DNA of 64,000 nt from Aegilops tauschii subsp. strangulata (lineage: Eukaryota; Streptophyta; Magnoliopsida; Poales; Poaceae). This document shows positions 7,301 to 50,588 of this stretch, piece by piece; the stretch's first letter is position 1; each line of letters starts with the position of its first letter. Below the pieces are notes generated by a model. The model had not been told where the DNA came from. It did no database searches and worked only from the letters and a program-made list of their open reading frames with translations. The stretch is from positions 501,836,544 to 501,900,543 of the forward strand of contig NC_053037.3 in the NCBI RefSeq assembly GCF_002575655.3. Direction: 5' to 3'. The translations under genes were made by a program, and so were the position numbers.

Positions 7301-7488
7301 TGAAAAGAATTTGAATTCATAAATGCAAAATGAAAGTTTTGGGAAAGTCCTTTTATCCCTCTCATTTAACTTTCAAAAGTTTCAAATTTCACTCACTTTC
7401 ATTCAATCAATCACACAACAATCATGCAAACAATGAAAACTATTTATTTATTATAACATTCCAAAATTTAGAATTTTGGGATGTTACA
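4326..7488 (-). repeat. 3' LTR of the LARD-like element
   Basis: The 3163-bp LTR matches the scattered right-hand copy (37220-37322, 46242-46859, 48549-50588). It is the more complete copy: 5045-5448 exist only here because the right copy lost them. It contains a GC-rich block (about 6290-6720) next to a TATA-like box, followed on the minus strand by an AT-rich downstream part. Open frames in the GC-rich block are low-complexity Arg/Gly/Ala runs and are not taken as genes. Confidence 0.9.
6563..6570 (-). promoter_or_regulatory. TATA box of the LARD-like element LTR
   Basis: TATATAAG on the minus strand, followed by a GC-rich leader, is the likely LTR core promoter. The matching position in the other LTR copy (about 49664) reads TATTTAAG, a weakened box. 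Confidence 0.55.
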
Positions 7489-10900: not shown

Positions 10901-10944
10901 GTGCCTCGACACGTGGGAGATATAGCCGCATCGTGGGCGTTACA
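7912..10944 (+). repeat. 5' LTR of the chromovirus
   Basis: This copy is 3033 bp, against 4309 bp for the 3' copy. It has a TATA box near 8445, a telomere-like CCTAACCCTAGC motif near 8490 and a very GC-rich leader (8500-8920). Open frames in the GC-rich part are low complexity and are ignored. Compared with the 3' LTR it lacks about 1.2 kb at 9056-9071, where only eight bases are present. Confidence 0.93.
8445..8456 (+). promoter_or_regulatory. TATA box of the chromovirus LTR
   Basis: CTATAAAAATAC lies about 40 bp before an AACCCTAGC leader motif. It is conserved at 17129-17140 in the 3' LTR, so transcription probably starts near 8480. Confidence 0.6.
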
Positions 10945-10947
10945 AGT

Positions 10948-10961
10948 TGGTAATCAGAGCC
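10948..10961 (+). other. Primer-binding site, initiator Met tRNA type
   Basis: TGGTAATCAGAGCC starts three bases after the 5' LTR. It matches the iMet tRNA 3' end (TGGTATCAGAGCC) with one extra A, so it is slightly degraded. Confidence 0.8.
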
Positions 10962-18966: not shown

Positions 18967-19058
18967 TCCAGTGGCATGCTTAGTTTGCCAAGTTACTGCC
19001 TTGTTCATCATTTTTCTTCCGGAGCACGCATATGCATCGCATACCACATCTCGCATAT

Positions 19059-19150
19059 CATACATGTTTTGCATCATGTTGCTTGTGCATGAGGTTCTCA
19101 TGCACAACGTAGGCAGTAAGCATGAGGCTTGCATCATGTTGCTTGTGCAA
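19059..19150 (+). repeat. Local duplication TTGCATCATGTTGCTTGTGC in the 3' LTR
   Basis: The 20-mer occurs twice here, about 60 bp apart, but only once in the 5' LTR (about 9169). One copy is a later tandem duplication with its intervening sequence. Confidence 0.75.
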
Positions 19151-20909
19151 TTCCCGTGGTTGATTGTGGTTCCGTTTGCTTGTGTTCTTGTTGTGGGTAG
19201 AGGCGGGAGACGAGTTCGTGAATGAGGAACCTGTTGAGTACGCTTACGAGGATCAAGCTTTCGACAACTCTGAGAACCTTGCAAGCAAGATGACCATACC
19301 CTTGAAATCACTTCTATCTTTGCTTTGCTAGTTGTTCGTTCTTTTGCCATGCTGCGTTACCTACCACTTGCTATATCATGCCTCCCATATTGCCATGTCA
19401 AGCCTCTAACCATCCTTTCCTAGCAAACCTTTGTTTGGCTAAGTTACCGCTTTTGCTCAGCCCTTCTTATAGCGTTGTTAGTTGCAGGTGAAGTTTAAGT
19501 TGGTTCCATGTTGGAACATGGATATGTTGGCATATCACAATATCTCTTATTTAATTAATGCATCTATATATTTGGTAAAGGGTGGAAGGCTCGGCCTTAT
19601 GCCTGGTGTTTTGTTCCACTCTTGCCGCCCTAGTTTCCGTCATACCGGTATTATGTTCCTTGAGTTCGCGTTCCTTACGCGGTTGTGTGATTTATGGGAC
19701 CCCCTTGACAGTTCGCCTTGAATAAAACTCCTCCAGCAAGGCCCAACCTTGGTTTTACCATTTGCCACCTAAGCCTTTTTCCCCCGGGTTTTCGCGAGCC
19801 CGAGGGTCATCTTTGTTTAAACCCCTGGGCCAGTGCTCCTCCGAGTGTTGGTCCAAACTAGAGCACCATGCGGGACCGTCCCTTGGCAACTTGGGTTACG
19901 TTGGTACCTGTACGCTTAGCTTATCCGGTGTGCCCTGAGAACGAGATATGTGCACCTCCTATCGGGATTTGTCGGCACAGCGGGTGGTCTTGCTGGTCTT
20001 GTTTTACCATTGTCGAAATGTCTTGTAAACCGGGATTCCGAGACTGATCGGGCCTTTCTGGGAGAAGGTTTATCCTTCGTTGACCGTGAGAGCTTATAAT
20101 GGGCTAAGTTGGGACACCCCTGCAGGGTATTATCTTTCGAAAGCCGTGCCCGCGGTTATGAGGCAGATGGGAATTTGTTAATGTCCGGTTGTAGAGAACT
20201 TGTCACTCGACTTAATTAAAATACATCAACCGTGCGTGTAGCCGTGATGGTCTCTTCTCGGCGGAGTCCAGGAAGTGAACACGGTTTGAGTTATGCATGA
20301 GCGTAAGTAGTTTCAGGAACACTTCTTGATCTTTTCTAGCTTCGCGACCATTGCGTTGCTTCTCTTCTCGCTCTCATTTGCGTATGTTAGCCACCATATG
20401 CTTAGTGCTTGCTGCAGATCCACCTCACTACACCATCGTTTCCTATAAGCTTAAATAGTCTTGATCTCGCGAGTGTGAGATTGCTGCGTCCTCGTGACTC
20501 ACAGATTCTACCAAAACAGTTGCAGGTGCTGACGATGCCAGTGCAGACGACGCAACCGAGCTCAAGTGGGAGTTCGATGAGGAACGTGGTCGTTACTATG
20601 TGTCTTTTCCTGATGATCAGTAGTGGAGCCCAGTTGGGACGATCGGGGATCTAGCATTTGGGTTTATCTTATTTTCATTTGGATCTTGACCGTAGTCGGT
20701 CTATGTGTGGATTTTGGATGATGTATGAATTATATTTATGTATTGTGTGAAGTGGCGATTGTAAGCCAACTCTCGTTATCCCATTCTTGTTCATTACATG
20801 GGATTGTGTGAAGATGACCCTTCTTGCGACAAAACCACAATGCGGTTATGCCTCTAAGTCGTGCCTCGACACGTGGGAGATATAGCCGCATCGTGGGCGT
20901 TACAGATTG

Positions 20910-21001
20910 GCAACAACTGCCTTGTACAAGGGAGGATAAATTGTCATACCATTCTAAGGTTTAAACAAGGTTTTGATCGTCGTCTCTCTACTATAGGTAA
21001 G
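20910..21001 (-). other. LARD-like element internal sliver between two insertions
   Basis: 92 bp of the host element survive between the chromovirus (TSD GATTG at 20905-20909) and the Tat-lineage element (TSD GTAAG at 20997-21001). Too short to assign a function. Confidence 0.8.
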
Positions 21002-21521
21002 TGTTGAGGATATAGATACTGGTGTAACCTGCCCGAGATGGGCCGGGTTACGTTGCGACAACTCTTCATTCAGAAGCCCAAGGACAGGTTAAGGATGGCG
21101 GTTTAGTAATAGGTCTAAGGCCCAGAGGCGACTTAAGGCCCGTAGTGGTAAACCGCCGTCGTGGCATGACTTGTAGTGTAAGGCAAGAATAGTTAAGAGT
21201 CCAAGCCGGACACAGTTTATGAGCCGGCCGGGACTCTGAGAGCTGCGGGGCGTTAACCTTTCTATATAAAGGGATGACCCGGCGGCGGTTTAGGACAAGT
21301 AAGATCAGATCGATAGCTAGGCAGGGCGGTTTAGCTCCTGGTCATCGAAACCCTAAGTAATTCCACCTCAACTGGAGTAGGCTTTTACCTTCAACGTAAG
21401 GGGTCGAACCAGTATAATCCTCATGTCCTTTGTCCCGTTTAAACCCTTTAAGCTTCCTAGCTGCGATGGCTCCACGACTAAGTCCTTGCACGAGGACATC
21501 TGCCGTGACAATTCCATGACA
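21002..21521 (+). repeat. 5' LTR of the Tat-lineage element
   Basis: Starts TGTTGAGGATATAGATACTG and ends CCATGACA. It has the same length as the 3' LTR with 11 substitutions and no indel. It contains repeated GGCGGTTTA phrases and a TATA box. Confidence 0.95.
21262..21271 (+). promoter_or_regulatory. TATA box of the Tat-lineage LTR
   Basis: CTATATAAAG is present in both LTRs (second copy about 33893-33902) and is placed centrally, as expected for U3/R. Confidence 0.7.
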
Positions 21522-21541
21522 GTTGACGCCCACCGTGGGGC
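21522..21541 (+). other. Presumed primer-binding site of the Tat-lineage element
   Basis: GTTGACGCCCACCGTGGGGC follows the LTR directly. It is not the Met or Asp tRNA type used by the other elements here. I cannot assign the primer tRNA. GCCC and GGGGC could pair as a small hairpin. Confidence 0.5.
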
Positions 21542-21607
21542 CAGCGCATGGTGGATTTGAGTTCTTGAAGGGCAGCTTCGAAGGGCTCAAGGGATACGCT
21601 GTGGGCC

Positions 21608-23812
21608 GGATGACCAGAAGTCGTCGCAGCAAGCTCTACATCAACGACGCAGGCTGGGGCCCGGACGCCGGCTCAATTGAGTACGGGTACCGGGTCCCCT
21701 TCGGCGGAATCCACGTTTTCATTGGCAAGATTGGCGAGCCGGGCCCTGAGCCAGACATCTGCACCGACCCGTCGAGACGGCTCAGCGTGCAAGACCCGCC
21801 CGGACTCTGCCAGCCTTGAAGCGTGCTTTCGTGGGATGTGTCCATGGAGAACTCTCTGAAGGATCTGGATCTGGCGAGGAGACGGCCACCCGCTCTGACG
21901 GTGAGTCGTCCACAGGTGAGACAGACTCGTTATATCAACTTCAAGATGGCAGTCTCAGGGGTTGTTTCGATGGCGACAGTATTCCGGACCCCTTTGAGCC
22001 GCCGAGCCGGGTCGGAATCTTCATGGCCGGCACACAACCTGTTCAAAGCTCCGCCGCTGGGGCAGGAGGCCCTGTGCACTCGCCGGCTCAGGTGCTGATG
22101 GATCTCACGGATAAGATGACGGCTCTGTTAACCGCTACGGTCGTCCCAGCTTATCAAGCTCAACATGATGCAGAGGTGGCACAGTTAAAGCTGGACATAG
22201 CGAGAGCCAAGGAAGATCTGGCAGCGGAAGGGATCAGGATGGCTGCAGAACGGGCGGCTCTTGACGCCCAGACTCAGCTGATTCAGGCGCAGTCTTTCCG
22301 GCTCACGATGGATCAGAACACATCCAATGAGATCATGAGAAGGAGGCATCAGAAGGCTCAATCTCGACTCCCTCCGGTTTACGATCCTCGAAACCTCTTC
22401 AACACGCCTGGTGCAAGGCCCAGTAACCCGCCAGAAATCACGGCACCCGGGGCTGGAACGCCGATTCAACCGCAAGTGATGGGGCCTCTTCGTGTGAACA
22501 CTGCCCCGCCTCAATACGTGCCTATACCACCGGGTCATTATGCCAACCCGTTGGAAAACATGATCACGCAGCGGCGCGACTGGCGGCTCTCCCAGTCGAG
22601 GGCGACTCTCCGACGGTGGTCGAAACCCGCCGGGTCGGAGAACTTCTTCAGACGGCTCTGGCGCAACAGGAGGCATATTCATATAGCCGGGACATGATTC
22701 ATTCAACCCCTCATCCAAACCGGAGCCCAAGTTATAGCAGACACATGGTTTCAGCCACCGGCTCAAGCAACGTCCCGCGCCGTGACTTGCCAGCTGGCCA
22801 CGGCCCGGCACATAATGGAGCCTTTAACGCGGTAGACCAAGACAGAGCACGACAAGAGGCGGAGCAGGTGGCTCAGCTAACAGCTTACCAGCCCCTCCTG
22901 GTTTATCGGACGACTTCTATCGAGGCGGGCGTACCTACGAGGACCGGAGGTGTCCCTTGTCTGGTGCCGGCTCTCCGTAATGAACGTCTGCCCAAGGATT
23001 TCAAAGGACCTAGGAAGGTACCTAATTACACGGCTGATTTACAACCCGGAGCATGGATCGAGAGCTACGAGATGGCTATGGAGTTGCTGGAGGTCAGCGA
23101 AGCGGCAATGGCCAAATACTTCACCATGATGTTGGATGGGACTGCCGACACTTGGTTGAAAGGACTGCCGCCTAATTCTATCGGGTCATGGGCAGAGCCA
23201 AAAGCCCGGTTCATCCAAAACTTCAAAGATACATGTAGGCAATCTATGTCAATTGTGGATTTGACTAACTGCAAGCAGCAAGAGGGCGAGTCTACAACCC
23301 ATTGGGTTCTCCGGGTCAAAGAGATAATACATTCATCTGATAAGATGGATGCCGGCTCTGCAGTCTTAATGTTGGAGCAAAATTGTCATTTTGCGCCCCT
23401 GAAGATGAAGCTCGGGCGGCTCAAGCGCGATTGCAATGATATGGGTACGCTGATGGCGGCTCTGGTCAAGTACGCCAACTCTGATAGTACCAAGGATCCT
23501 GCGTCTGATGATGAAAGGACAGGGAAGGGAAAGAAGAATGGCAACGACAAGGGCCCTCAGCATAACCCGGCGAACCAGGGAGGTAACAAACGTAAGGCTG
23601 ATGGTAGTATGGAGTTTGTGGCCAACACCAATGCGCAGGGTAACAACCACCGACGTAAGGGGAGACCACCTCCCCGAGCCGGCGGGCCAGGCCCGACTCT
23701 TGAGCAATTATTGAATGAGCCCTATCCAAGGCATGGCTCTAGGGAGAAGCCGGCCACTCATCTATGGAAAGACTGCACAATCATGAAAGCCTTCAAAAAT
23801 TCCAACGCTTTT
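21608..23812 (+). pseudogene. Tat-lineage gag
   Basis: A plausible start is the ATG at 21608 (MTRSRRSKLYIND). The reading shifts frame near 21820, near 22567 and near 23812, so at least three indels have occurred. The middle part has a long amphipathic stretch with AQLKLDIARAKEDLAAEG. The conserved core is at about 22980-23480: PKDFKGPRKVPNY, WIESYEMAMELL, YFTMMLDGTADTWLKGLP, FIQNFKDTCRQ and GESTTHWVLRVKEI. It is followed by a Lys/Asn-rich region and a Gly/Ser/Gln-rich tail. No clear CCHC knuckle is seen. Gag would build the particle; this copy is broken. Confidence 0.85.
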
Positions 23813-26604
23813 ATGGCAACAATGGGCAGGGCGGCGGCTCAGGCGCCGGCGGCTTTCATGGCCCGGGCGGCGGCTCTAATTCCAATTCTCAGAATCTTCA
23901 AGGAGGATTTAATCAACGATCTGGCCAGGGTAATCAGCAGCAGCAGCAGGGGGGATACCAGACCAATCCAAAGCAGCTCAATGGTGGACAGTATCATGTG
24001 TTTACTACCAGTCTGTGCAAGCGAGACCAGAAGCTTCATAAGAGGGCTGTAAATGCTGTTGAGCCGGCGGTTCCACGCTATTTAAGATGGTCTGAGCAGC
24101 GTATTGTATGTAGTAGGGACGATCACCCTCCCCGGGTTGATAATCCGGGTCACCTGGCCTTGGTGGTGGCTCCTCAGGTTGGGGGGTACAAATTCACTAA
24201 AGTGCTCATGGACGGAGGCAGTAGCATCAACATCCTCTATAATGAGACCTTCCGTCGTATGGGATTAACTGATAAAAACCTCAGCCAGTCTAACACTGTT
24301 TTCCATGGGGTGGTGCCCGGTAAGTCGGCGTATCCAGTCGGTAAGATCGAGCTGGAAGTAGCCTGTGGAGATGAGTACAACTACACGGCGGAAAAATTGA
24401 CTTTTGAGGTGGTTAAAATAAGAAGCCCGTACCATGCTTTATTTGGGCGGCCGGCTTACGCCAAGTTCATGGCACGACCGTGTTACGTGTATTTGCAGCT
24501 CAAGATGCCGAGTCACAATGGGACCATTACGGTTCATGGCAGCCGAAAGATAGCCTTGGAGTGTGAGGAAGGTGACGCTACTTACGCTGAATCTGTTTGT
24601 ACAACAGAGGAGTTCAAGTTTTACAAGGATAATGTTGACCTGGCAGATATGACGTCTTTGAAAAAGCCAACCACGGAGCATGAGCCGATAATGAAATTTA
24701 AGTCGGCCGATGAGACTAAACTTGTTGACTTTGTTCCAGGAGACTCATCTAAGCAGTTCAGCATCAGTGCCAATCTGGATCCGAAATAGGAAGGCGCGCT
24801 CATCGAGTTCATCCGTGAGAACAGGGACATCTTTGCATGGAAACCTTCTGACATGCCGGGTGTACCAAGAGAACTCGCTGAGCACACTCTCAATATTGAT
24901 CCGAAATTTAAGCCAGTCAGGCAATTCCTCCGGCGGTTTAATGAGGAGAGGCAGAAAGCCATTGGTGAGGAAGTAGCCCGGCTCTTGGCGGCCGGGTTTA
25001 TCGTTGAAGTCTTTCATCCAGAATGGTTAGCTAACCCGGTGCTCGTGCTCAAGAAGAATGGCACCTGGCGTATGTGTGTGGACTATACGGATTTAAACAA
25101 GGCTTGTCCGGTTGATCCATTTGCTCTCCCCCGTATTGATCAAATTATTGATGCTACGGCAGGTTGTGAGCGTTTGAGTTTTTTGGATGCTTACTCTGGA
25201 TACCATCAGATCAAAATGGCAGTTAAGGACCAAGAGAAGACGACGTTCATCACTCCCTTTGGAGCCTTCTGTTATGTGTCTATGCCTTTTGGGCTCAAGA
25301 GTGCACAGGCGACTTACCAGCGGTGCGTGCAGAATTGTCTCCACAATCAGATTGGGCGCAACATTCATGCTGATGTGGATGATATTGTGGTAAAATCCAG
25401 AGAGAAGGAAACCTTGGTAGATGATCTGAAAAAGACCTTTGATAATCTCCGGGTCTACAAGATGATGCTTAATCTGGTCAAGTGTGTTTTTGGTGTTCCT
25501 GCAGGCAAGCTCTTGGGTTTTCTGGTTTCTCACAGAGGCATCGAAGCTAACCCGGAGAAGATCAAGGCAATGACCTCTCTGGCTAAGCTGGCGTGCATAA
25601 ATGACGTCCAGCGTCTGGCGGGTCGCATCGCTGCTTTGAGTCGGTTTATAAGCCGGTTGGGCGAAAAAGCCATGCCACTATATCAGATGATGAAGAAAAC
25701 AGAATATTTTGTCTGGAATGACGCTGCTAATGCTGCTTTTGAGGATTTGAAAAGACAGCTAGCTGAGCCGCCAGTCCTTGCTGCTCCTATCAATAAGGAG
25801 CCCTTGTTGTTATATGTAGCCGCTAACACACGAGCCGTCAGTGTGGCTGTGGTGGTGGAGCGTAAGGAGGCGGGTAAGGAACATCCGGTTCAGCGGCCGG
25901 TTTACTACGTCAGTGAAGTACTTATTGAGTCTAAGCAACGGTATCCACATTGGCAGAAGCTTGTTTATGGGGTGTTCATGGCAAGCCGGAAGCTTAAGCA
26001 TTATTTCCAAGGCCACCCTATCACTGTGGTTAGTTCTGCTCCCCTAGGAGATATCATCCAAAACAGAGAAGCCACAGGAAGAGTTGCTAAGTGGGCCATA
26101 GGACTCGGGCCTCATGGTCTAAAGTACGTGCCACGCACTGCTATCAAATCTCAAGCATTGGTGGATTTCATCAACGATTGGACAGAGCTGCAGGTGCCTG
26201 AAGAGAAACCGGATAATACATACTGGACTATTCACTTCGACGGATCCAGGCAATTGGAGGGCTCGGGGGCTGGAGTCGTGTTAGCTTCCCCTCGAGGTGA
26301 CAAGTTTTGTTATGTACTACGGTTGATGTTTCCCTGTACTAACAACGCAGCTGAGTACGAGGCCTTGCTCCATGGTCTTCGGATGGCTAAGGAGATGAGC
26401 TTAAGCCGGGTAAGGTGCTTTGGCGACTCAGATTTGGTGGCCCAACAAGTATCAGGCAAGTGGGATTCCAAGGACCCCCTCATGGCGGCTTATTGCCGCG
26501 AAGTTGATGCCATTGCTGGACATTTTTAGGGTTACCAAGTAGAGCACATCAATCGCAAAAAGAACGAGGCGGCTGATGCATTAAGCCAGTTAGGCTCTCA
26601 GTGA
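23813..26604 (+). pseudogene. Tat-lineage protease, reverse transcriptase and dual RNase H
   Basis: The protease region has KVLMDGGSSINILY (about 24200). A TAG at 24787 (Gln position) separates it from the reverse transcriptase, which has VLKKNGTWRMCVDYTDLNKACP (about 25045), FLDAYSGYHQI and, near 25370, DVDDIVVKS where relatives have YVDD; both Asp remain but the Tyr is lost. The first RNase H is degenerate (LLLYVAANTRAVSVAVV, about 25805). A second archaeal-type RNase H follows, with IHFDGSRQLEGSGAGVVL (about 26230), NNAAEYEALLHGL and FGDSDLVAQQVSG, ending with ADALSQLGSQ. TAG at 26527 and TGA at about 26602 interrupt it. Dual RNase H is diagnostic of the Tat lineage. Confidence 0.9.
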
Positions 26605-27993
26605 AAGCCGGTGCCGCCTAATACTTTCTTGGATACTCTGCATAACCCTTCTGTCAAGTTACCTACAGAGGAAGACTTGGCTGTTCCTGACCCAGAAGCA
26701 CAGTTGGTGGCGGCTCTCCACATTATCCCAGATTGGACAGTGCCATACTTGGCTTATATGACTTGGGGAGAATTGCCTAAGGATGAAACTTTGGCCAGAC
26801 AAATAACCCGGCGGTCTAAGTCAATGATAATTGTCAATGGCGAGCTGCATCATCGCAGTGTCATTGGAGTTTTTCAGCGTTGTGTTTCCTTTGAGGAAGG
26901 TCAAGAAATTTTACGTGAGATTCACGAGGGGGATTGTGGCCATCATGCCGGCTCAAAATCCCTTGTGGCCAAGGCTTTTTCGTCATGGTTTTTATTGGCT
27001 GACGGCTCATGCTGATGCAGAGGACTTAGTCAGTAAATGTGATGGTTGTCAAAAGTTCTCAAGACGGGCTCACGTGCCAGCTCAAGAGTTGAGGATGATT
27101 CCAATCACTTGGCCGTTTGTAGTCTGGTGGCTTGATATGGTGGGGCCTTTCAAAAGGTCCAAGGATAAGAAGACCCACCTCTTGGTGGCGGTTGACAAGT
27201 TCACAAAGTGGGTAGAGGCAGAGCCAGTTAGTAAGTGTGACGCAGCCACGGTGGTCCAGTTCATGAAAAAGGTGATATTTCGCTTTGGTTTTCCACACAG
27301 CATTATAACTGACAATGGTACCAATCGGTCTAAAGGCACCATGGAGGAATTTTGTCAATGAGAGCATATTCGGCTTGATGTTTCATCAGTGGCTCACCCT
27401 CAATCCAATGGTCAAGCTGAGAGAGCCAATCAGGAATCTTGAAGGGCATCAAGCCCCGGCTTTTGGTCCCTTTGCAATGGGCGCCGGGTTGTTGGGTGGA
27501 GGAGTTACCCTCCGTATTATGGAGCATCAATACTACTCCTAACAGGTCTACGGGTTACACGCCTTTCTTCATGGTTTACGGAGCTGAGGCGGTCCTTCCT
27601 AGCGACATCCATCATGATTCGCCTCGAGTGGCGGCTTATGTCGAGGCGGATAATGAGCAAGCGCGTCAAGATGCTCTTGACTTGTTGGACGAACAGCGTG
27701 ACATAGCAGCAGCTTGCTCGGCGATTTACCAACAAGACTAGCGCCGCTATCACAGCCGCCGGGTTAAGTCCAGGGTCTTTCAGGAAGGTGATTTGGTGCT
27801 CCAGCTCATCCAGGATCAAACAGATGCACACAAGCTATCCCCACCTTGGGAAGGGCCCTTTATGGTCAGCAAGAACTTGCACAACGGGTCATACTACCTT
27901 ATCGATGTTCGGGAGCACAATGATTCACGTAAGTCGGAGGAGGAGACCCGCCGGCCGTGGAACATAGCTCAGCTTCGGCCTTATTACACTTGA
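26605..27993 (+). pseudogene. Tat-lineage integrase
   Basis: The zinc domain has IHEGDCGHHAGSKSL (about 26920) and CDGCQKF (about 27040), with a frameshift between them near 26985. The core has WWLDMVGPFKRS (first Asp, about 27130), SIITDNGTN (second Asp, about 27300) and, after another frameshift and a TGA near 27359, HPQSNGQAERANQ with the Glu (about 27395). The C-terminal part has VYGAEAVLPSD, a TAG near 27740, and WEGPFMVSKNL, ending with LRPYYT at 27990. All three acidic residues are visible, but the reading is broken at four or more places. Confidence 0.88.
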
Positions 27994-29095
27994 GCCACCG
28001 GCTCTCATAATGTACATATTTCTATAGCCATGTATATATTGTGATAAATAATAAAGCAGGACCTCTGTCCTTTTTTCCTCCAAAGGTAAATGTATCATTG
28101 TTATTTTCATCGTAATATTACATGGTCACTTGGAGGTTGATCCGGCTTATGATCGTATTCGAATCTAGCCGTTAAAAATATGATCACTTGGGGGCTTGCT
28201 GTTCAAACATAGGTCGTATTCGAACCAAAGAGAACATAGCTGTCGATACCCACTTGATTGGCATATTGCCGAGCTCATTGGGGAGTTTTTCTTGATCATA
28301 TTTGAATCATAGCTCAACCCCCTTTCGGAACCGACGTGGATCGTATTCGAATCGGCGTCGCTAAACAATTCTCAAGGTCATTTGGGGGCTTCCTGTTCAA
28401 ACATAGGTCATATTCGAACCAAAGAGAACATAGCTGTCGGTACCCTCTTGACCGGCAACGCCAAAGCCACTGGGGGCTATATGATCGCATTTGAATCTTA
28501 GCTTAACCCCTTTGGGACGGTTCTCTGTTCGTATTCGAATCAGAAGCCCCTAAATTTTTGAGATCTCTTGGTTTGCAAACCAGTTCTTTGATGATGTCAA
28601 AAGCATTCAAGGGTGGTTCCTATTCCACCGGCTTAACCTTGATTAATAATGTTGATAGCACATAATAAGCATTATATGTGCTGGTGAACCGGAGTTGAGT
28701 TCTCAACCTCATTATTCGGGTTACATAAACCGGAAGTGTATTTGAAGGCTCGCAGGTATGCTGTTATGGTTATCTCGAAGATATAATTGAGAGCCGGTTT
28801 ATTATGACTTTGATTCATATTCCGGGTTATATGTAAAATATATGACTCTCCATGCGGTAAGCCGCCCAGAGACTTGTGATTTGTTTTCTATGCAATACAA
28901 TTAAAGACAGCTCTTTAAACTTAAGGAAAGCAGAGGATCAAACATAACCCGGAAGAATATAAAAGGGCAGTTTAAATAGAGTTAAGCACTACACACGTGC
29001 ACGATGGCACGACAAAATTAAGTGTTCGTCCTACTCTATTACAGGACTCCCCGAGTCCAGTGAGGCATTGTTTTTGAGACATAACCATGAGCCGC
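27994..29095 (+). other. Non-coding region between pol and the antisense gene
   Basis: No gene is seen. The first half holds the motif array described separately (28151-28542). The second half has repeated CCGG-containing phrases (AACCCGG, AGCCGG) common across this element. Any 3' end of the antisense gene's transcript would fall here. Confidence 0.6.
28151..28542. repeat. Seven copies of a GATCRTATTYGAAYC-like motif, about 190-bp super-repeat
   Basis: Copies start at about 28151, 28212, 28294, 28339, 28406, 28483 and 28528. Spacing alternates, and the set repeats with a period near 187-195 bp; for example, the phrase CTGTTCAAACATAGGTC occurs near 28199 and 28393. Most copies contain the palindrome TTCGAA; two read TTTGAA. 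Confidence 0.8.
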
Positions 29096-30154
29096 CTAAG
29101 AAATCAAAGGTGCTTGTTGGGCTGAAGCTTCCGGCTCATCCCTCTCCGCTCCTCCGGCTGTTTCCATGTCCTGGAAGGTTGATGATTTCCAGTCAATGCC
29201 ACTCAAAGCTTCAAATTGAGCTTCATTATCAATTAACCCGGCCGGGTCAACTTCAGGGGCGAAGGTATGCTTATGAGTCGGAGGAATCAGGCTGACTGCT
29301 TCATAACGAGGTGTTGGGATCCTCTGATTCTCCACGTCATAGCCCGGTTGATATTTGGTAAGGTCTGTGTCATTACCAATCAAAGTGGCCACCGGGCGTA
29401 CGCTCTTCACACAAGCGGCGAAGTCTTTCTGGTCAAAGGGAGTGCCATCTTCCTTCAAGCTAGGATACCCAAGGGCGATGTCGGCGGGGTCTAGCTCTGG
29501 TAGAAACGCTTTGGCCCGGCTTAGGGCGGCTATGGCTCCGGCTCTTGCAGAAGCTCGTCTTAACTCTTGGAAGCGTTGAGGAAGCACGGGCCTGAGTACA
29601 TCCGCCAGATGAGTGGGAACTTTGTTTGACAGAGCCACAACGGCTAAGGAACATTGTGACCTGGTGTAAAGTTGTTCTACAAAGGTGTAAACCGCCTTCA
29701 GCTTGGTCAGCACGTTCTGGTTGAGATTGGAACTCCTGGGACCTGCATTACAAGGTCAGGTGAGCTGATGGCAATTGAGATACTTATGGGAAATGAACGA
29801 TGTAAACTAGTTAGAAACTTACAGAGTAACTTAGCAAAGATTGCGGAGACCATCTGAGATACATGGCGTTTTAAGCCGGATAGCTCGGCGTTTCTTTCAG
29901 TAAGAGTGGCCTCCGCTTGTTTGGCCCAGCTGAGCAAAGCAGTTTTTTCATCCGCCCAGGCTTTTCTTTCTGCTTCAAATTTCTTCTTCAGTTTCTCTTG
30001 TGCAGATACGCTGACTTAAAATTTGGACTTGGCCTTTTGGGTTTCACTTTCCTGAGTCTTCAGGCATTCTTTAGATCAGAGATTTCCGATTCAAATATCT
30101 TACAGGCGGCTTGTACAAATGCCGGTTACAGTTAGGGTGATTATAATGCAACAT

Positions 30155-30300
30155 TAAGTCCCAAGCACTTTGCAAGCAAAGACACTTGGCACTTGGGGGC
30201 TAATGTATGCTGAAAAGCTCTATTTACAGTGCCGGTTCATGAAAATAAGTCCCAAGCACTTTGTAGGCAAAGGTACTTGGCACTTGGGGGCTAATGCGTA
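30155..30300. repeat. 91-bp tandem duplication in intron 3 of the antisense gene
   Basis: TAAGTCCCAAGCACTTTG at 30155 recurs at 30246, each followed by CTTGGCACTTGGGGGCTAAT. CCCAAG and CTTGGG within each copy could pair. Confidence 0.75.
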
Positions 30301-31683
30301 AATTTGCTCAACTACTTGATTAAAATAAGGTAAGAACCGGGTCAACTATGCTGTTTAAGCCGGCCCTTGAGTGTTACCAGGTAAGCCGGTTTTCTTGAAG
30401 TGATTATTAAGCCGGTATTGAGTCTACAACATATTTCATCATAAGTAATAGACTTGGGGGCTGGCATGGTAAGGATAACTATGGAGTAAGCAAGAGAGTC
30501 ATACCTCAGACTTCTGCTGTATTTGCTTCACCATATCAATTTCCAGGTCCCGGCTGTTGTGCACTTGATTAATATAGCCAGAGACAATATCTCCAATGCT
30601 CAGATTAGCATAATTAGTGATGTCCAGCCTGGCCCTGCGGCGTTCCAGAAGTTCTTCCTTGGCGGAGCATCTAGCCAACACGGTGGGTCTTCCCGGTTCG
30701 ACAAACTCGGTCCGGGTGATTACAACGTCCGGATCATCTGGATGAGCCGGGCTGGGGATCTCCGGGTTATCAGAACCTTCCATAACTTGTTCATTAGATG
30801 GAGCAGTGGCGGTTTCAGGAGCTGGTGCAGACGGCGGCTCGTGAGCAGAAGCATCAGGTTCAGTCAGGACCGGCTCTTCGGCCGGCTTATTTTTCTTTGC
30901 CCTCTTGCTGGGCTTTACTTGTACACTGAAAGTCAAAGGGTTAGTGCAAAAACATGAGTAAGATAAGCACAAAATAAGCTAATCATCATTACCCGGGTGC
31001 GGTTTTGAAAGCCGGCAAGCTAGACTGCATTGAGTCACCGGAGTAAGGTGAAGTTCCCTGATAGTTTGAATCAGAATAATTGAGTGGTTGACGAGTGACG
31101 CCCGCCAAAGGATGAAAAGGATATAAGTCAGAGATAACCTTGGTCCGACGCTTCCTTGATGCTTCGGGTAAGCCGGAGGAGAGGTCTGCATCCTTGCTGG
31201 TCCGGGTCTGCCTCCGACTCTCATAAATCTGTCGCTTCAAAAGAAATTGAGGATCTTGATGAGCTAAAGGATGTGAAAATCTTACTTTCCGGGTTACTCT
31301 TCGGACTTTCAGTCTTGGCAAGGGCTCCGAGTCGGAGGAAATTATAGTTACCTCTTCAATCACTTCATGACTCGTTCCGGTGTCCTCCTGCTGATAATCC
31401 ATGTTAATAAGATGGTTAAAAAAGGAGCCTAAAGAGTCAAGGGCTACCTCTGACTCGGAGGTGTCTTCCAGGTGAAGCAGGTCCGAGGCGCTAGGTTTAC
31501 TCCCCTTCTTGCGGGGAGCGGCTTTCTTGGCGGCTTTTTAAACCTTTCTGGCTTTCTTAGCAGCTTCATGGTCATACTCGACCTTCCAGAATTTATCATT
31601 AGCCTGTAAAATACAACAAAGGTTTTTGAAGTTTAGACGAAATCGTTAAAATGGAAGGTGAGGTGTTTAGGTCAATAGTTTAC

Positions 31684-32586
31684 CGCTGGGGCCGGGTTAG
31701 CCTTGCAGAAAGGACTTAAGCCTGTCCTCCCGCAATCTGCCAGGCCCTCGTTCAGAAGAGAGTTGGTCATATCATCAATGATGTCCTGAGGTAAGTCGTC
31801 GGGACTGTGCCGAAGAGGATCATCCTTCCGGCCCGTGTAATCACACATTAAGCCGGGGCGGCGGCTTAAAGGAATCACCCGCCAGGCAATCCAGACCCGG
31901 ACCAGATCAATGCCATTTAGGCCGTTTCCCAGAAGAGCTTTGATTTTGTTGACGGTGGGAATAAGTGGTTGACGTTTAGCTTGAGATAATTTGTCTGGCA
32001 GGGGGTGATTTGACTCCAGACGCAGGGCACGAAAGCCGGGCAGAGGGTTCTCATCAGCCGGAGAAGTATCTTGGCAGTAGAACCATGTCTGGTTCCAATC
32101 TTTTGGGTGGCTTGGCGGCTCAGCATAAGGGAAGAGACAATCTCTCCGTCGTTGGATTGAGATTCCACCGAGTTCCAAGCTAGGCCCGTTGGCACATTCA
32201 TTCTCGCGGTTCAAATAAAATAACTCCCTAAAGAGTAGCAAGCTGTGCTCTTCTCCAAGGTACACCTCACAGAACACTTGGAAGTTACAAATGTTTGACA
32301 CGGAATTGGGTCCAATGTCTTGAGGTCGCAGGTCGAAAAAGTGCAGAACATCTCTGAAGAATTTTGAGCCGGGAGGAGCAAAGCCCCGGCTCATGTGATC
32401 AGCAAATATGACAACCTCTCCGTCCTTGGGTTGAGGTCTCTCTTCGGACGGGTCAGGAGCACGATAGGACATGACCTCTTTCTTGGGCAGGTAACCCATT
32501 TTTATGAAGTCAGCTAAGGTGCTATCAGTAACGTTGGATTTAACCCAGTTGCATGTAATGGGCGCCTTGGGAGCCTTGGGCGGCAT
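31684..32586 (-). CDS. Exon 1 of the antisense gene, PF04195-like domain
   Basis: About 301 codons from the ATG at 32586 without a stop up to a GT donor at 31683. It starts MPPKAPKAPITCNWVKSNVT. Typical blocks are VVIFADHMSRGFAPPGSKFF, FFDLRPQDIGPNSV, FQVFCEVYLGEE, FYCQDTSP and WRVIPLSRRPGLMCDYTGR. It is open along its full length, unlike gag-pol around it. If not spliced, the frame ends 12 bases further on. Confidence 0.82.
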
Positions 32587-33633
32587 TGTGAAGGATGGAA
32601 GCCTAGGACAAAATAAAATTTCTGGTTCAAATTTAAGCCGGAGGAAAATTTCGGTTCAGTATTTAAGGTGGCGGCTTATGAAGGGGCCTAATGATATATG
32701 GCCAATTGTGTCAGGTTATTTAAGCCGCTATGGATATCGTGAGCAATTAAGTTATTTGACTCTGTTATGGATGACCCGGAATATTCATGAAGCATCGCCT
32801 TTTTTAAGCCGGTGATATGAGCCGCCATAGCGAACAGATGCAATTTTTGCCTAAGTGTTGCACAAATAAGTTTCACAGATTGCAGTAATTATTTTGGATC
32901 AAACGGTCGTCCAGAAAGGAAAATTTTCTAGACCTAAAAACTGGCATAGAGAAGTTCATAAGTTCTAATGAGGTCTTTTTGCAAGCAAAAGGGATCTGCT
33001 AGTATTGGAAATGGGTGCGAAACCACTACCGCAGGAGTTCTGTGCTGTTTTTCGAATCAAAAGAAGTCGCGGTGGAAGAACTATAAAAGAACTGAGATGA
33101 ACTACGAAGAATATGGAGGAATGCGGAACCCTAATGCGGATCTGACGTTTGAGAAGAAGAGGACTTACAGTTGTAGGTGCACTGCGGAGAGTCGCCGCTG
33201 TTCTCTGGACTAGCTCTGGTTGATGCAGCGGCCGAGGCTGAGGAAGACGAGAGGCGCGGCGGCGGCGGCGGAGCTCGGGCTCTGAGGCGTTGGGAGGAGG
33301 AAGACGACGGAAAGGGAAGAGTGAGAGAGGACCCGGTTGGTCCTATTTATAAGGGACGACTGATGAGTGGGCGCGAGAAACGAGGAGGCTGAAGACATGA
33401 TTATCCAGCTACAGAGGCGCCTCGATTTTCGGGATAATTATTAAAGATAAGGATCCGTTGAGATACGTTGGGAAGAACATGGATTAATGGCGGATGATGT
33501 CACGGCGGATTACCAAGAATCCAGAGGATGACATCATGGCGGGTTATAACCTTCGCGCAAACAGAAGCCGGAAGATTTTCTCTTAAGGTATTGAAGATTG
33601 ACATGAACCGGTTCAAATCAATCTGGGGCCTAA
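32587..33633 (-). other. Putative 5' leader and promoter region of the antisense gene
   Basis: This region lies between the antisense start codon and the 3' LTR. Near 33175-33320 it turns GC-rich, like a grass 5' leader, just downstream of a minus-strand TATA box. No conserved protein is seen on either strand. Confidence 0.5.
33344..33351 (-). promoter_or_regulatory. TATA box upstream of the antisense gene
   Basis: CCTTATAAATAGGACC on the minus strand contains a consensus plant TATAAATA. Transcription starting about 30 bases downstream (about 33315) would enter the GC-rich leader and reach the antisense ATG at 32586. It lies inside the element, not in the LTR. Confidence 0.55.
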
Positions 33634-34153
33634 TGTTGAGGATATAGATACTGGTGTAACCCGCCCGAGATGGGCCGGGTTACGTTGCGACAGCTCTTCA
33701 TTCAGAAGCCCAAGGACAGGTTAAGGATGGCGGTTTAGTAATAGGTCTAAGGCCCAGAGGCGACTTAAGGCCCGTAGTGGTAAACCGCCGTTGTGGCATG
33801 ACTTGTAGTGTAAGGCAAGAATAGTTAAGAGTCCAAGCCGGACACAGTTTATGAGCCGGCCGGGACTCTGAGAGCTGCGGGGCGTTAACCTTTCTATATA
33901 AAGGGACGACCCGGTGGCGGTTTAGGACAAGTAAGATCAGATCGATAGCTAGGCAGGGCGGTTTAGCTCCTGGTCATCGAAACCCTAAGTAATTCCACCT
34001 CAACTGGAGTAGGCTTTTACCTTCAACGTAAGGGGCCGAACCAGTATAATCCTCGTGTCCTTTGTCCCGTTTAACCCCTTGAAGCTTCCTAGCTGCGATG
34101 GCTCCACGACTAAGTCCTTGCACGAGGACATCTGGCGTGACAATTCCACGACA
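33634..34153 (+). repeat. 3' LTR of the Tat-lineage element
   Basis: 520 bp, collinear with 21002-21521, followed by TSD GTAAG at 34154-34158. The preceding ATCTGGGGCCTAA is the likely polypurine tract. Confidence 0.95.
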
Positions 34154-34158
34154 GTAAG

Positions 34159-37322: not shown

Positions 37323-40300
37323 TGATACGTCTCCGTCGTATCTATAATTTTTGATTGTTCCATGCCAATATTTTACAACTTTCATATACTTTTGGCAACT
37401 TTTTATACTATTTTTGGGACTAACATATTGATCCAATGCCCGGTGCCAGTTCCTGTTTGTTGCATGTTTTATGTTTCGCAGAAACCCCATATCAAACGGA
37501 GTCCAAACGGGATAAAAACGGACGGAGAATATTTTTGGAATATTTGTGATATCTGGGAAGAAGAATCAACACGAGACGGTGCCCGAGGGGGCCACAAGGC
37601 AGGGGGCGCGCCCCTGACCCTCGTGGGCACCCCGTAAGGCGGTTGCTGCTCTTCTTTTGCCGCAAGAAAGCTAATTTTCGGAAAAAAAATCGTGGTGAAG
37701 GTTTCAATCCAATCAGAGTTACGGATCTCCGGTTATAAAAGAAACGGTGAAAGGGTAGAATCCAGAACGCAGAAATAGAGAGAGACAGAGAGACATATCC
37801 AATCTCGAAGGGGTTCTCATCCCTCCCACGCCATGGAGACCATGGACCAGAGGGGAAACCCTTCTCCCATCTAGGGAGAAGGTCAAGGAAGAAGAAGAAG
37901 AAGGGGGATCTCTCCCCCTCGCTTCCGGTGGCGCCGGAACGCCGCCGGGGCCATCATCATCACCGCGATCTACACCAATGATGACCCACAAGTATAGGGG
38001 ATCTATCGTAGTGCTTTTGATAAGTAAGAGTGTCGAACCCAACGAGGAGCAGACGGAAATGATAAGCGGTTTTCAGCAAGGTATTCTCTGCAAGCACTGA
38101 AATTGTAGGTAACAGATAGTTTTGTGATAAGATAATTTGTAACGAGTAGCAAGTAACAAAAGTAAATAAAGTGCAGCAAGGTGGCCCAATCCTTTTTGTA
38201 GCAAAGGACAAGCCTGGACAATTTTTTATATGAAGGAAAATGCTCCCGAGGGCACATGGGAATTATCATCAAGCTAGTTTTCATCACGTTCATATGATTC
38301 GTGTTCGGTACTTTGATAATTTGATATGCGGGTGGACCGGTGCTTGGGTGCTGTCCTTACTTGGACAAGCATCCCACTTATGATTAACCCCTATTGCAAG
38401 CATCCGCAACTACAAAAGAAGTATTAAGATAAACCTAACCATAGCATGAAACAAGTGGATCCAAATCAGCCCCTTACGAAGCAACGCATAAACTAGGGTT
38501 TAAGCTTCTGTCAGTCTAGCAACCCATCATCTACTTATTACTTCCCAATGCCTTCCTCTAGGCCCAAATAATGGTGAAGTGTCATGTAGTCGACGTTCAC
38601 ATAACACCACTAGAGGAGAGACAACATACATCTCATCAAAATATCGAACGAATACCAAATTCATGACTACTAATAGCAAGACTTCTCCCATGTCCTCAGG
38701 AACAAACGTAATTACTCACAAAGCATATTCATGTTTATAATCAGAGGAGTATTAATATGCATAAAGGATCTGAACATATGATCTTCCACGAAATAAACCA
38801 ACTAGCATCAACTACAAGGAGTAATCAACACTACTAGCAACCTACAGGTACCAATCCCAGACTTGGAGACAAGAATTGGATACAAGAGATGAACTAGGGT
38901 TTGAGAGGAGATGGTGCTAGTGAAGATGTTGATGGAGATTGGACCCCTCCCGATGAGAGGAGCGTCGGTGATGGTGATGGCGATGATTTCCCCCTCCCTG
39001 AGGGAAGTGTCCCCGGCAGAACAGCTCTGCCGGAGCCCTAGATTGGTTCCGCCAAGGTTCCGCCTCGTGGCGGCGGAGTCTCGTCCCGAAAGCTTGCTTC
39101 TGATTTTTCTTCGGACGGAAGATTTTATATAGCAGAAGATGGGCACCGGAGGGCCAACAGGGGGCCCACGAGGCAGGGGGCGCGCCCAGGGGGGTAGGGC
39201 GCGCTCCCACCCTCGTGGCTAGGGTGTGGGCCCCCTCTGGTATTTCTTCCGCTCAATATTTTTTATTACTTCCAAAAACAACTTTCGTGGAGTTTCAGGA
39301 CTTTTGGAGTTGTGCAGAATAGGTCTCTAATATTTGCTCCTTTTCCAGCCTAGAATTCCAGCTGCCGGCATTCTCCCTCCTTATGTAAACCTTGTAAAAT
39401 AAGAGAGAATAGGCATAAGTATGGTGACATAATGTATAATAACAGCCCATAATGCAACAAATATCGATATAAAAGCATGATGCAAAATGGACGTATCAAC
39501 CAACACCACCGTCATCTTCATGAACATCTTCATCGCCTTCCCCCATCTATCTACAGTGGTCCACTCTCCCACAACCCGCTGTACCCTCTACTTGAACATG
39601 GTGCTTTATGCTTCATATTATTATCCAATGATGTGTTGCCATCCTATGATGTCTGAATAGATTTTCGTTGTCCTATCAGGTAATTGGTGAATTTCTATGA
39701 TTGGTTTAATTTGCTTGTGGTTATGTTGCTGTCCTTTGGTGCCCATCATATGAGTGCGCGCGTGGATCACACCATAGGGTTAGTTGTATGTTGATAGGAC
39801 TATCTATTGGAGGGCAAGAGTGACAGAAGCTTAAACCTAGCACATAAATTGATGCATATGGGATTGAAGGGGGACCAATATATCTTAATGCTATGGTTGG
39901 GTTTTACCTTAATGAACGTTAGTAGTTGCGGATGCTTGCTAATAGTTCCAATCATAAGTGCATAGAATTCCAAGTCAGGGATGACATGCTAGCAGTGGCC
40001 TCTCCCACATAAAACTTGCTATCGGTCTAGTAAAGTAGTCAATTGCTTAGGGACAATTTCGCAACTCCTACCACCACTTTTCCACACTCGCTATACTAAC
40101 TTTATTGCTTCTTTATCTAAACAGCCCCTAGATTTAATTTACGCTCTCTTTAGTATCTTGCAAACCTATCCAAAAACACCTACAAAGTACTTCTAGTTTC
40201 ATACTTGTTCTAGGTAAAGCGAACGTCAAGCGTGCATAGAGTTGTATCGGTGGTCGATATAACTTGAGGGAATATTTGTTCTACCTTTAGCTCCTCGTTG

Positions 40301-46859: not shown

Positions 46860-48548
46860 TCCCCGGCAACGGCGCCAGAAAAGAGCTTGATGTCTACTAC
46901 ACAACCTTCTTCTTGTAGACGTTGTTGGGCCTCCAAGTGCAGAGGTTTGTAGGATAGTAGCAACTTTCCCTCAAGTGGATGACCTAAGGTTTATCAATCC
47001 GTGGGAGGTGTAGGATGAAGGTGGTCTCTCTCGAACAACCCTGCAACCAAATAACAAAGAGTCTCTTGTGTCCCCAACACACCCAATACAATGGTAAATT
47101 GTATAGGTGCACTAGTTCGGCGAAGAGATGGTGATACAAGTGCAATATGGATGGTAGATATAGGTTCTTGTAATCTGAAAATATAAAAACAACAAGGTAA
47201 CTAATGATAAAAGTGAGCACAAACGGTATTGCAATGCTAGGAAACAAGGCCTAGGGTTCATACTTTCACTAGTGCAAGTTCTCTCAACAATAATAACATA
47301 ATTGGATCATATAACTATCCCCGAACATGCAACAAAGAGTCACTCCAAAGTCACTAAAAGCGGAGAACAAACGAAGAGATTATGGTAGGGTACGAAACCA
47401 CCTCAAAGTTATTCTTTCCAATCAATCTGTTGGGCTATTCCTATAAGTGTCACAAACAGCCCTAGAGTTCGTACTAGAATAACACCTTAAGACACAAATC
47501 AACCAAAACCCTAATGTCACCTAGATACTCCAATGTCACCTCAAGTATCCGTGGGTATGATTATACGATATGCATCACACAATCTCAAATTCATCTACTC
47601 AACCAACACATAGAACCTCAAAGAGTACCCCAAAGTTTCTACCGGACAGTCAAGAGGAAAACGTGTGCCAACCCCTATGCATAGGTTCATGGGCGGAACC
47701 CGCAAGTTGATCACCAAAACATACATCAAGTGAGTCACGTCATATCCCATTGTCACCACAGATATGCACGGCAAGACATACATCAAGTGTTCTCAAATCA
47801 TTAAAGACTAAATCCGATAAGATTACTTCAAAGGGAAAACTCAATCCATTACAAGAGAGTAGAGGGGGAGAAGGAACATAAGATCCAACTATAATAGCAA
47901 AGCTCGCGATACATCAAGATCGTGCCAAATCAAGAACACAAGAGAGAGAGAGATTAAACACATAGCCACTGGTACATACCCTCATCCCCAAGGGTGAACT
48001 ACTCCCTCCTCGTCATGAAGAGCGCCGGGATGATGAAGATGGCCACCGGTGAGGGTCCCCCCCGGAAGAGTGCCGGAACAGGGTCCCGATTGGTTTTTGG
48101 TGGCTACAGAGGCTTGCGGCGGCGGAACTCCAGATCTATTCTGTTCCCCGATTGTTTTAGGGTATATGGACATATATAGCAGGAAGAAGTACGTTAGGGG
48201 AGCCACGAGGGGCCCACGAGGGTGGAGGGTGCGCCCAAGGGGGTGGGCGCGCCCCCTACCTCGTGCCTTCCTCATTGCTTTCTTGACGTGGACTCGAAGT
48301 CTCCCGGGTTGCTTTCTTTCCAAAAATAACTTCTCCAAAAGGTTTCATTCCGTTTGGTCTCCATTTGATATTCCTTTTCTTGTAAACACTGAAACAAGGA
48401 AAAAAACAGGAACTGGCACTGGGCTCTGGGTCTATAGGTTAGTCCCAAAAATAATATAAAAGTGTTTAATAAAGCCCATAAACATCCAAAACAGATAATA
48501 TAATAGCATGGAACAATCAAAAATTATAGATACGTTGGAGACATATCA
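46860..48548 (-). mobile_element. Truncated Athila-like element: one LTR plus primer-binding site
   Basis: On the minus strand an LTR (48548-46888, 1661 bp) starts TGATATGTCTCC and ends GTAGTAGACATCA. Ten bases later comes TGGCGCCGTTGCCGGGGA (46877-46860), a perfect Asp tRNA primer-binding site. The sequence then switches directly to the host LTR. The rest of the element and about 400 bp of host LTR (equivalent of 5045-5448) are gone. The switch point TCCCC is common to both sides. A GC-rich stretch near 48040-48260 belongs to the LTR. Confidence 0.88.
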
Positions 48549-50588
48549 GTAACTCCCCAGGGTTTGATATAAGACAATAGGTTCTACCTCATCAACTACT
48601 TCCCAATACCCACATGTTACCAAATCCTACTCAGGCAAAGTTTGAGGGTTGAAACTAATGCATACAAACTGGGTATGAAGTGTATGATCAAAGTGCGAAC
48701 TTGCCTTGTATGGTTGACGTAGATGATTCGCACTCATAACTCCTGATAGATCTAGTTGTCACACTCCGGTCAATCTATCGTAAGCAAGCAATAGTAACCA
48801 CACATAAGCAATCAAGCAAAAGAATCGAAGAAAAGATCTTGGAAAACTTCGAAAACAAGCAATCAACTCTTGCAAAATTAAGCAATTTATAACAGTACCA
48901 AAATTAAGTGAATTTTGCCTTATCAGAAAGTTTAGGTCAAGAGCTTCAATTTGCAAAAAGAATCAACTCAAACGGAGTTATAAACCTCAAGTTACGATCA
49001 AACGAAGTTCAAATACAAATATGTTTGAATTCAAATTTTAATACCTTCAAAAATATGTTTAAGTTGTTTTACTGGATAGAGGGGATCGTAATGAAAAAGT
49101 GGGCGTTGGTTTCGTTGGATTTGGGTAAGCGGGCAAAAAGTTGTAGCCGTTTGAAAACCAGGGGCTAATTTGAAAATAATATATTCACGGATGGGTCCCT
49201 GACTGAAATTAAAAAGAAAAAGGAAAAATTCTACCGAACGAACGTTCGCTACAGAACGCTAAAGAACGAATCTGTTTGCTGTGAAGACGTAACCAGCGAA
49301 CGTTCTCTAAATAACTAGGTTGAATAAGAAAAATCGGGTTTAACCAAAAACCGAAAGCTGAAAAATAAACCGGATAGGACCAGGCGGTTTTACCGGTCCA
49401 CGGCGGGTTCGTCGTCGTCGGCGGTTTTCCAGCGGTAGCGGCGTGCTCCGGCGACGAGGGCGGCTGCGGCAGCGTGCGTGGCGCGGGGCGGCGGTGGATG
49501 CGGCGCGGGACTGCAGCGGCAGCGCGGCGAGCATGCGGCGGCGCGGCTCGAGTCGGACGGCGGCGCAGGCGGCGGCAGCGGGAAGTGTGGCGGCGGCACA
49601 GCGGTTACTGCGAGATGCGGCGGCGGCGTGAGGAGAGAGAGAGAGGGCAGCAGGGGCGGCGCTTAAATAGGAGGGGAGGGGACCAGCGGTGGCTTGGGGA
49701 AGGGGCTGAAGAGGCGGCAGCGCGAGTCCGACGCGGACACGGTGTCCATGGCGGCGGCAATGCGTGCGGGAGCCGGAGACGGGGCGGTTGGGCCGGCTGG
49801 CTGGGCTTCGGCGCAGCTAGCCCGAAGAGTTTTTTTAAACAAAAACAAACAGTAAAATAAAATAAAATCAAATAAAATCAAATAAAAAAAATGTAGTATA
49901 GGCATATAATATATCAAAATTTCCAGAAAAAGATTTATACAACATGAACATTTTTCTAGCATCAAATAAAATCCACAAAAATTTAAATAAAACAAAGAGT
50001 GCTACTGATTTATTTAAAACCCAATAAAATCATTAAAAAATACCAAAATGATTTCAAATTTATTTTCTCCAATTTTCCATTGTAGGGAATCATTTTACCC
50101 TATTTTCCATATATTTAACTTTTGGGGAAAAATAATTTGAATAAAACCCGAATACCTCCAAATTGAAAATGATTTCAAAATACCTTCAAAGGGACTTTCA
50201 AATTTGATTTCTTTTAAACTCCCAACTCATATTTCATATGGTTTCAAGAAGTCATATTATCTTCTCTCATGAAAACCATTGAGTTGCTTAGAGTTTCTGA
50301 ATTTGAAACATTTCCAAATGGAAGTCAAATATTTTAAAGAACCCTTTTCATTTATTTAAATGGAAGAAGTCATGTCATCTTCTCTCCAGGGTTTTTTGGT
50401 GAAAAGAATTTGAATTCATAAATTCAAAATGAAAGTTTTGGGAAAGTCCTTTTATTCCCTCTCATTTAACTTTCAAAAGTTTCAAATTTCACTCACTTTC
50501 AGTCAATCAATGACACAACAATCATACAAACAATGAAAACTATTTATTTATTATAACATTCCATTATTTAGAATTTTGGGATGTTACA
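48549..50588 (-). repeat. 5' LTR of the LARD-like element, U3 segment
   Basis: Matches 5449-7488, including the GC-rich block (49390-49800) and AT-rich tail. It ends with GGGATGTTACA and TSD ATAGT at 50589-50593. Confidence 0.92.

Follow-up and report, generated by a model that had tools for sequence, protein, structure and literature searches.

An intron-rich antisense TRP28 gene in a Retand-type retrotransposon of Aegilops tauschii, as read from splice joins shared with its relatives

Introduction

Antisense open reading frames (ORFs) with a TRP28 domain (PF04195) are a hallmark of the Retand lineage of retrotransposons, where they occur in 97% of clusters, and DNA binding has been predicted for TRP28 (Vicient 2025, PMC11963269). 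Here we describe a stretch of 64,000 nucleotides from Aegilops tauschii subsp. strangulata (NC_053037.3, positions 501,836,544 to 501,900,543; the window hereafter), in which a long terminal repeat (LTR) retrotransposon, likely a decayed Retand-type copy, carries a series of TRP28 gene exons on its minus strand. The locus shares with the published Retand ORFs the position between pol and the 3' LTR, the antisense orientation and the TRP28 domain (PMC11963269). In contrast, the available portion of that survey lists ORFs of at least 600 bp without exon-intron structure, while the ORFs here are read as exons of one gene (PMC11963269). The maize Grande element also has an antisense accessory gene in its 3' internal region, gene23, which was reported to have its own promoter and a nuclear protein (Gomez-Orte 2013, as cited in PMC7264820); the likeness is drawn here from that description (PMC7264820).

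A review of December 2025 presents plant LTR retrotransposons as generally lacking introns, with Ogre and EVADE as exceptions (PMC12786077). These two share with the present case the spliced RNA of a plant LTR element, but theirs is a partly spliced intron in the sense RNA, whereas several introns of an antisense gene are concerned here (PMC12786077, PMC6317226). A review from 2020 urges attention to antisense and spliced transcripts, the word intron being absent from the available portion of its text (PMC7264820), and a Nanopore study of triticale seed reports introns in gag-coding retrotransposon RNAs, the terms Retand and transposase not occurring in the part of it that is available (PMC7765848). 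Among the papers listed from the open-licence literature, none was seen, judging by titles, abstracts and selected passages, to describe introns in the antisense TRP28 gene, the subscription literature, including the Grande paper, lying outside that search. Spliced models of the gene are already public in databases, although the structure as such was not found in print, and its multi-exon, apparently alternatively spliced organisation appears to be undescribed.

Results

A first-pass annotation, made from the DNA letters, had proposed five coding blocks on the strand opposite to pol, and this antisense layout was essentially right, with minus-strand stop-free blocks of 327, 219, 182 and 159 codons lying where it had placed them. 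In 2000 order-2 Markov sequences the longest run reached 260 codons and the four longest summed to at most 645, whereas the longest block here has 327 and the four total 887. Coding exon 1 (31684..32586, ATG at 32586) comprises 301 open codons and matches the PF04195 (TRP28) profile with an E value of 4.1e-17, in agreement with the family assignment made at first pass. Introns 1 (31604..31683, 80 bp) and 2 (30926..30992, 67 bp) both have GT-AG borders, as predicted, and they flank coding exon 2 (30993..31603). Splice sites were ranked with a simple matrix among 210 donors and 317 acceptors in the region, and the intron 1 acceptor ranked first. Coding exon 3 (30505..30925) ends in QQKSE, with the donor GAG/GTATGA at 30504 ranking 2 of 210. 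The remaining borders are less sharp in this copy. The acceptor of intron 3 (approximately 30111..30504) is altered at the family boundary and the border between exons 3 and 4 was set via relatives; coding exon 4, the coiled-coil exon (approximately 29835..30110), was ended at the family boundary AIFG. By that boundary intron 4 occupies 29743..29834, where this copy has no GT at 29834, and coding exon 5 (29096..29742, stop codon 29098-29096) follows with 214 whole codons of a conserved C-terminal region. The intron 4 originally proposed (29822-29743) uses the next GTAAGT downstream in the same phase. Codon phase indeed agrees across introns 1 and 2 and across that intron 4, but most relatives covering the latter site put the donor 12 nt upstream.

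The copy in the window is a pseudogene, unable to make the full protein. Exon 2 is interrupted by a stop codon (31540-31538), exon 4 by both a frame break and a stop, and introns 3 and 4, judged by the family boundaries, are each altered at one end. The nonsense codon and the exon 4 damage had been noticed before, while the intron 3 acceptor and the intron 4 donor were missing from that list. Nor was it borne out that gag-pol is more decayed than the antisense gene, since the antisense lesions are several and gag-pol likewise persists as several separate plus-strand ORFs.

The joined translation, with X at the stop and the damage, was used as a query and matched 47 proteins, among which P0001 (Ae. 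tauschii) and P0002 (wheat) were 79% identical to the joined protein over 99%. With two further protein searches, the relatives came to 129 proteins among the matches listed (120 of 136 for one search). Those from ncbi, uniref or nr (85) were treated as gene models, and the other 44, of source types ena, jgi, lgn or src, are contig ORFs. To assess each join, the last 16 residues before it and the first 16 after it were located independently in every protein; the few proteins supplying these flanks count as exact by construction, and P0047 and P0064 are included in the counts though omitted from the alignment. Among the models with both flanks, join 1 was exact in 75/76, join 2 in 45/46, join 3 in 39/43 and join 4 in 26/32, and all four were exact in ten models as well as in the contig ORF P0040. 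The sole exception at join 1 was P0039, whose flanks are distant and in the wrong order. A motif count at join 1 concurs, with 73 of the 85 models spliced, none unspliced and 12 without the motif. Where join 4 is exact it reads AIFG/PRSS or similar, so that in the family the donor precedes 29822 by 12 nt. Coding frames were kept down to about 35% protein identity, and relatives about 50% identical retain both frame and joins. The joins are thus shared by independent relatives, and introns 1 and 2 of this copy have the GT-AG borders that go with them.

The contig ORFs provided unspliced and spliced controls. In 40 of the 44, a V stands directly after the conserved end of exon 1 and an unconserved tail follows; the residues at that point are VS (24), VR (10), VN (4), VT (1) and a terminal V (1), as explained by reading through a GTRAGT-like donor. 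Intron 1 is open in frame in P0086, P0092, P0095, P0105 and P0126, and a recognisable exon 2 appears after 26-30 residues. Two contig ORFs are joined. P0040, a single open frame of 845 aa on a 4258-bp contig, passes from exon 1 straight into exon 2 and has joins 1-4 exact, while P0110, a single open frame of 377 aa on a 1444-bp contig, has joins 1 and 2 exact and ends just past join 3, its last residues (IGRAHV) presumably resembling read-through into an Illumina adapter. From their sequences, the simplest reading of both contigs is that they are assembled cDNA. The remaining two contig ORFs were P0101, with L after the join, and P0125, in which the end of exon 1 is unclear. These exact joins, the conserved donor and the two spliced contig ORFs support the original proposal that a protein-coding gene, spliced and running antisense to the genomic RNA, lies here.

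Exon 2 lies where the first-pass annotation had put it, but it may not be a single uninterrupted exon throughout the family, as many models omit one or more of three in-frame GT..AG segments, all of them open in this copy. X1 (31391..31447, minus strand, 57 nt) is removed in 47 of the 85 models and kept in 6 (32 not assessable); for X2 (31229..31351, 123 nt) the figures are 18 removed and 23 kept (44 not assessable), and for X3 (31058..31138, 81 nt) 26 and 16 (43 not assessable). In the 33 models that could be scored for all three, 14 remove every segment and 14 remove X1 alone; X2 is the sole segment kept in 3, X1 the sole segment kept in 1, and X1 and X2 are both kept in 1. The X2 donor is the best-scoring donor in the region (rank 1 of 210). 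The borders of X1 are weaker: its donor has rank 25 and its acceptor rank 56, and using the AG that follows would give rank 3. With a length of 57 nt, or 60 nt up to that second AG, X1 is close to the lower size limit of plant introns. P0042, P0043, P0045 and P0046, which have equal-sized contigs and the isoform numbers X6 + X7 and X4 + X8, keep different segments. P0110 lacks X1 and X3 and has X2; by eye P0040 lacks all three, the scoring rule having assessed only X3 there.

Exitrons, or exonic introns, are coding segments with intron borders that are either retained or removed. X1-X3 are likely to be exitron-like segments, to judge from their sequences, being in-frame GT-AG segments of a coding exon that are kept or removed and conserved as protein; they differ from exitrons in lying inside a transposon accessory gene and in being known from gene models and contig ORFs. 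Identity with distant relatives was 14/19 for X1 and 26/41 for X2 (P0042) and 16/28 for X3 (P0043), against 16/47, 4/13 and 15/29 for neighbouring exon 2 stretches of P0042. The segments are therefore better conserved than parts of the surrounding exon 2 in P0042/P0043, the end of exon 2 (12/22 in P0042) being comparable to X3. In P0061, however, all three are poorly conserved (3/19, 9/36 and 5/16).

A TATA box, TATAAATA (33344..33351, minus strand), may serve the antisense gene as its promoter, and a C-rich leader lies downstream of it. The first-pass annotation had put this box about 760 bp upstream of the start codon and inside the 3' LTR; the distance holds (765 bp from the ATG at 32586), but 283 bp separate the box from the LTR, which places it in the internal region. 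To that earlier structure we add a leader intron, that is, an intron of the 5' untranslated region, of 566 bp (32603..33168, minus strand), which is probable on its splice signals, the donor ranking 8 of 210 and the acceptor 2 of 317. From the presumed start of the transcript up to the start codon there are five ATGs (32959, 32947, 32828, 32795 and 32788), and all fall within this putative intron. No relative confirmed the leader intron, the N-terminal extensions of nine proteins being uninformative. The TATA box, the C-rich leader, the leader-intron signals and the precedent of Grande together make a promoter of the gene's own plausible. At the other end, the minus strand has AATAAA-like hexamers, one from 28803 and one from 28716, that may act as polyadenylation signals. 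Past the presumed 3' end of the gene there is also an 80-nt direct repeat, 91% identical (28184-28263 and 28378-28457).

The predicted protein carries the TRP28 domain at its N-terminus, together with a basic stretch and a long coiled coil, and its C-terminal region is conserved. AlphaFold2, applied to P0001, was confident only in a long helix at about residues 525-647 (predicted local distance difference test scores mostly 70-94), and on the strength of this model we take helix 525-647 to be the coiled coil. The exon 1 domain yielded a usable structure model. The basic stretch follows join 1 in P0001, P0040 and P0005, and as a sequence feature it is only suggestive of a nuclear protein.

Some relatives of this transposon gene (P0043, P0045, P0057, P0114 and others) are annotated under host names, for example unc-89, SETD2 or WASH complex subunit 2-like. 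P0047, a PAIR1-like protein of Triticum dicoccoides, resembles the antisense gene (exon 5) only at its N-terminus; perhaps the model is chimeric, or an element reads through into a host gene.

The host element occupies 21002..34153 on the plus strand, with TG...CA ends, LTRs of 520 bp each (21002-21521 and 33634-34153) and a 5-bp target duplication, GTAAG, at both flanks (20997-21001 and 34154-34158). The LTR pair is 97.9% identical by BLAST. Its 11 differences in 522 aligned bases give a Kimura two-parameter distance of 0.0214 and, at a substitution rate of 1.3e-8, an insertion age of about 0.8 million years. Three of six plus-strand ORFs gave Pfam matches, covering gag, reverse transcriptase with RNase H, and the integrase core; the other three had no Pfam match. 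The reverse transcriptase was scored with Pfam RVT_1, and the lineage call comes from the antisense TRP28 ORF, the long region between pol and the 3' LTR, and the LTRs with their 5-bp target duplication. The last pol ORF taken ends at 27741, leaving 5892 bp to the 3' LTR; long minus-strand ORFs lie in this interval, including the antisense TRP28 ORF. The length of the interval is within the range of about 2.9-6.6 kb given for Retand elements (PMC11963269). In size the element (LTR 520; internal 12112; pol-LTR 5892) is near the Retand clusters Triticum aestivum 10 (528; 11,996; 5,828) and Aegilops umbellulata 1 (504; 12,140; 5,663) of the same survey (PMC11963269).

Several further observations concern repeats in the window. 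Within intron 3 of the antisense gene lies a 51-nt direct repeat, 92% identical (30155-30205 and 30246-30296), which holds two copies of CTTGGGGGCT; its two units fold at -17.6 and -15.5 kcal/mol, as raw values with no shuffle control. The window has four copies of CTTGGGGGCT on the plus strand (30192, 30283, 30453 and 28187) and none on the minus strand. Three are inside intron 3 and one is past the presumed 3' end of the gene. Two of the copies run on as CTAATG, resembling the junction of the polypurine tract and 3' LTR at 33624, and the CTTGGGGGCT copies may be secondary polypurine tracts. Further long repeat pairs, 88-94% identical, were seen at 5447-7488 with 48548-50588, at 9072-10953 with 18967-20913 and at 37979-39498 with 55974-54472; these are probably further and nested transposable elements. 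In circular DNA of blackgrass, PF04195 tops the listed domain counts, with 416 and 361 (PMC10606437, tables 2 and 3), a pattern compatible with recent movement of elements that carry the gene.

Discussion

We consider it likely that this element is a decayed copy of a Retand-type LTR retrotransposon (Tat clade, Ty3/gypsy), and that the antisense gene which its family bears between pol and the 3' LTR is real, spliced and protein-coding and acts as proposed below. Coding capacity and splicing are well supported by the comparison of sequences; the promoter, localisation and action of the product are what we infer beyond them.

A number of points weigh against this interpretation. The splice structure was read from DNA and protein sequences, most of the joins derive from annotation pipelines, which can share errors, and many of the 85 models are partial, which often explains the absent flanks. 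Not all models agree, either. Join 2 is one residue short in P0041; join 3 is off by -9 residues in P0006, P0018 and P0021 and by +4 in P0037; and join 4 has a 25-residue insert in P0042, P0043, P0045, P0046 and P0050 and is off by -8 in P0014. The contigs of P0040 and P0110 could in principle be processed genomic copies. As for the product, its DNA binding and nuclear function are predictions, and a fold search with the exon 1 domain model returned no convincing relative.

The strongest competing explanation holds that the antisense RNA itself is what matters, by pairing with the genomic RNA in small-RNA silencing or copy-number tuning, and that the reading frame is of lesser importance. The triggering of silencing by antisense transcripts of LTR elements has indeed been discussed (PMC7264820, PMC12786077). 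However, it is the protein encoded by the exons that is conserved, to about 35% identity, and not the tail past the exon 1 donor, and a function of the RNA alone needs no frame across four introns. We regard this account as unlikely, while noting that the two roles are compatible.

It is much less probable that the multi-exon structure is an artefact of gene prediction laid over separate antisense ORFs. The 85 models are pipeline-derived, with several discordant at joins 3 and 4 and many incomplete, as such an artefact would have it. In contrast, P0040 (four joins) and P0110 (joins 1 and 2) show the same joins as single frames, and the donor codon recurs at the same place in 40/44 contig ORFs, which we assume were called without a splicing model.

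Capture of a host gene by this element or a recent ancestor is very improbable. The intron-rich layout, the TATA box and the leader do resemble those of a host gene, and some homologues bear host-gene names, but antisense TRP28 is found in 97% of Retand clusters, in monocots and eudicots alike, and the survey's author did not find TRP28 similarity outside transposable elements (PMC11963269). An ancient capture of a host gene is possible. There is equally little to recommend a neutral passenger, once functional in the lineage and now merely carried, for although this copy is a pseudogene, Aegilops and wheat have full-length open models, and relatives at about 50% identity still preserve frame and joins.

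Under the interpretation we prefer, of a functional spliced antisense gene, RNA polymerase II would start near 33320 from the internal TATA box, and the antisense RNA would lose the leader intron and the coding introns and end near 28800-28700. A protein of roughly 860-940 aa would then enter the nucleus, self-associate via its coiled coil and act on the DNA, the RNA or the integration complex of the element that encodes it. The introns of the antisense gene read CT...AC in the genomic RNA and would not be removed before reverse transcription. Many introns can thus persist because the splice signals exist only in the antisense RNA, so that the genomic RNA which is reverse transcribed keeps them. 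HBZ of human T-cell leukaemia virus type 1 (HTLV-1) is spliced. It is likewise a retroelement antisense gene transcribed from the 3' side, with a nuclear regulator as its product, and is offered here as an analogy only (HBZ is named in PMC11963269).

Beyond this, we propose with reserve that Triticeae Retand elements have an intron-rich antisense gene from which the regulated removal of X1-X3 yields several isoforms of a nuclear regulator. We hold this to be possible, at somewhat less than even chances, having lowered our estimate slightly because the models disagree at joins 3 and 4.

The structure bears on how this family is studied. Where a survey counts ORFs in the antisense TRP28 region, a single spliced gene can look like several separate ORFs, or some of its exons can be missing from the count. 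The question of what TRP28 proteins do is best put to the full protein, which includes the coiled coil and the conserved C-terminal region. The structure also gives warning that some transposon genes of this family carry host-gene names in wheat annotation. Antisense placement would explain how a retroelement keeps introns through reverse transcription. If our interpretation is true, such placement lets an LTR element keep an intron-rich gene whose introns are invisible in its genomic RNA, and if the isoform proposal is true as well, a nuclear regulator is made in several isoforms by one and the same element.

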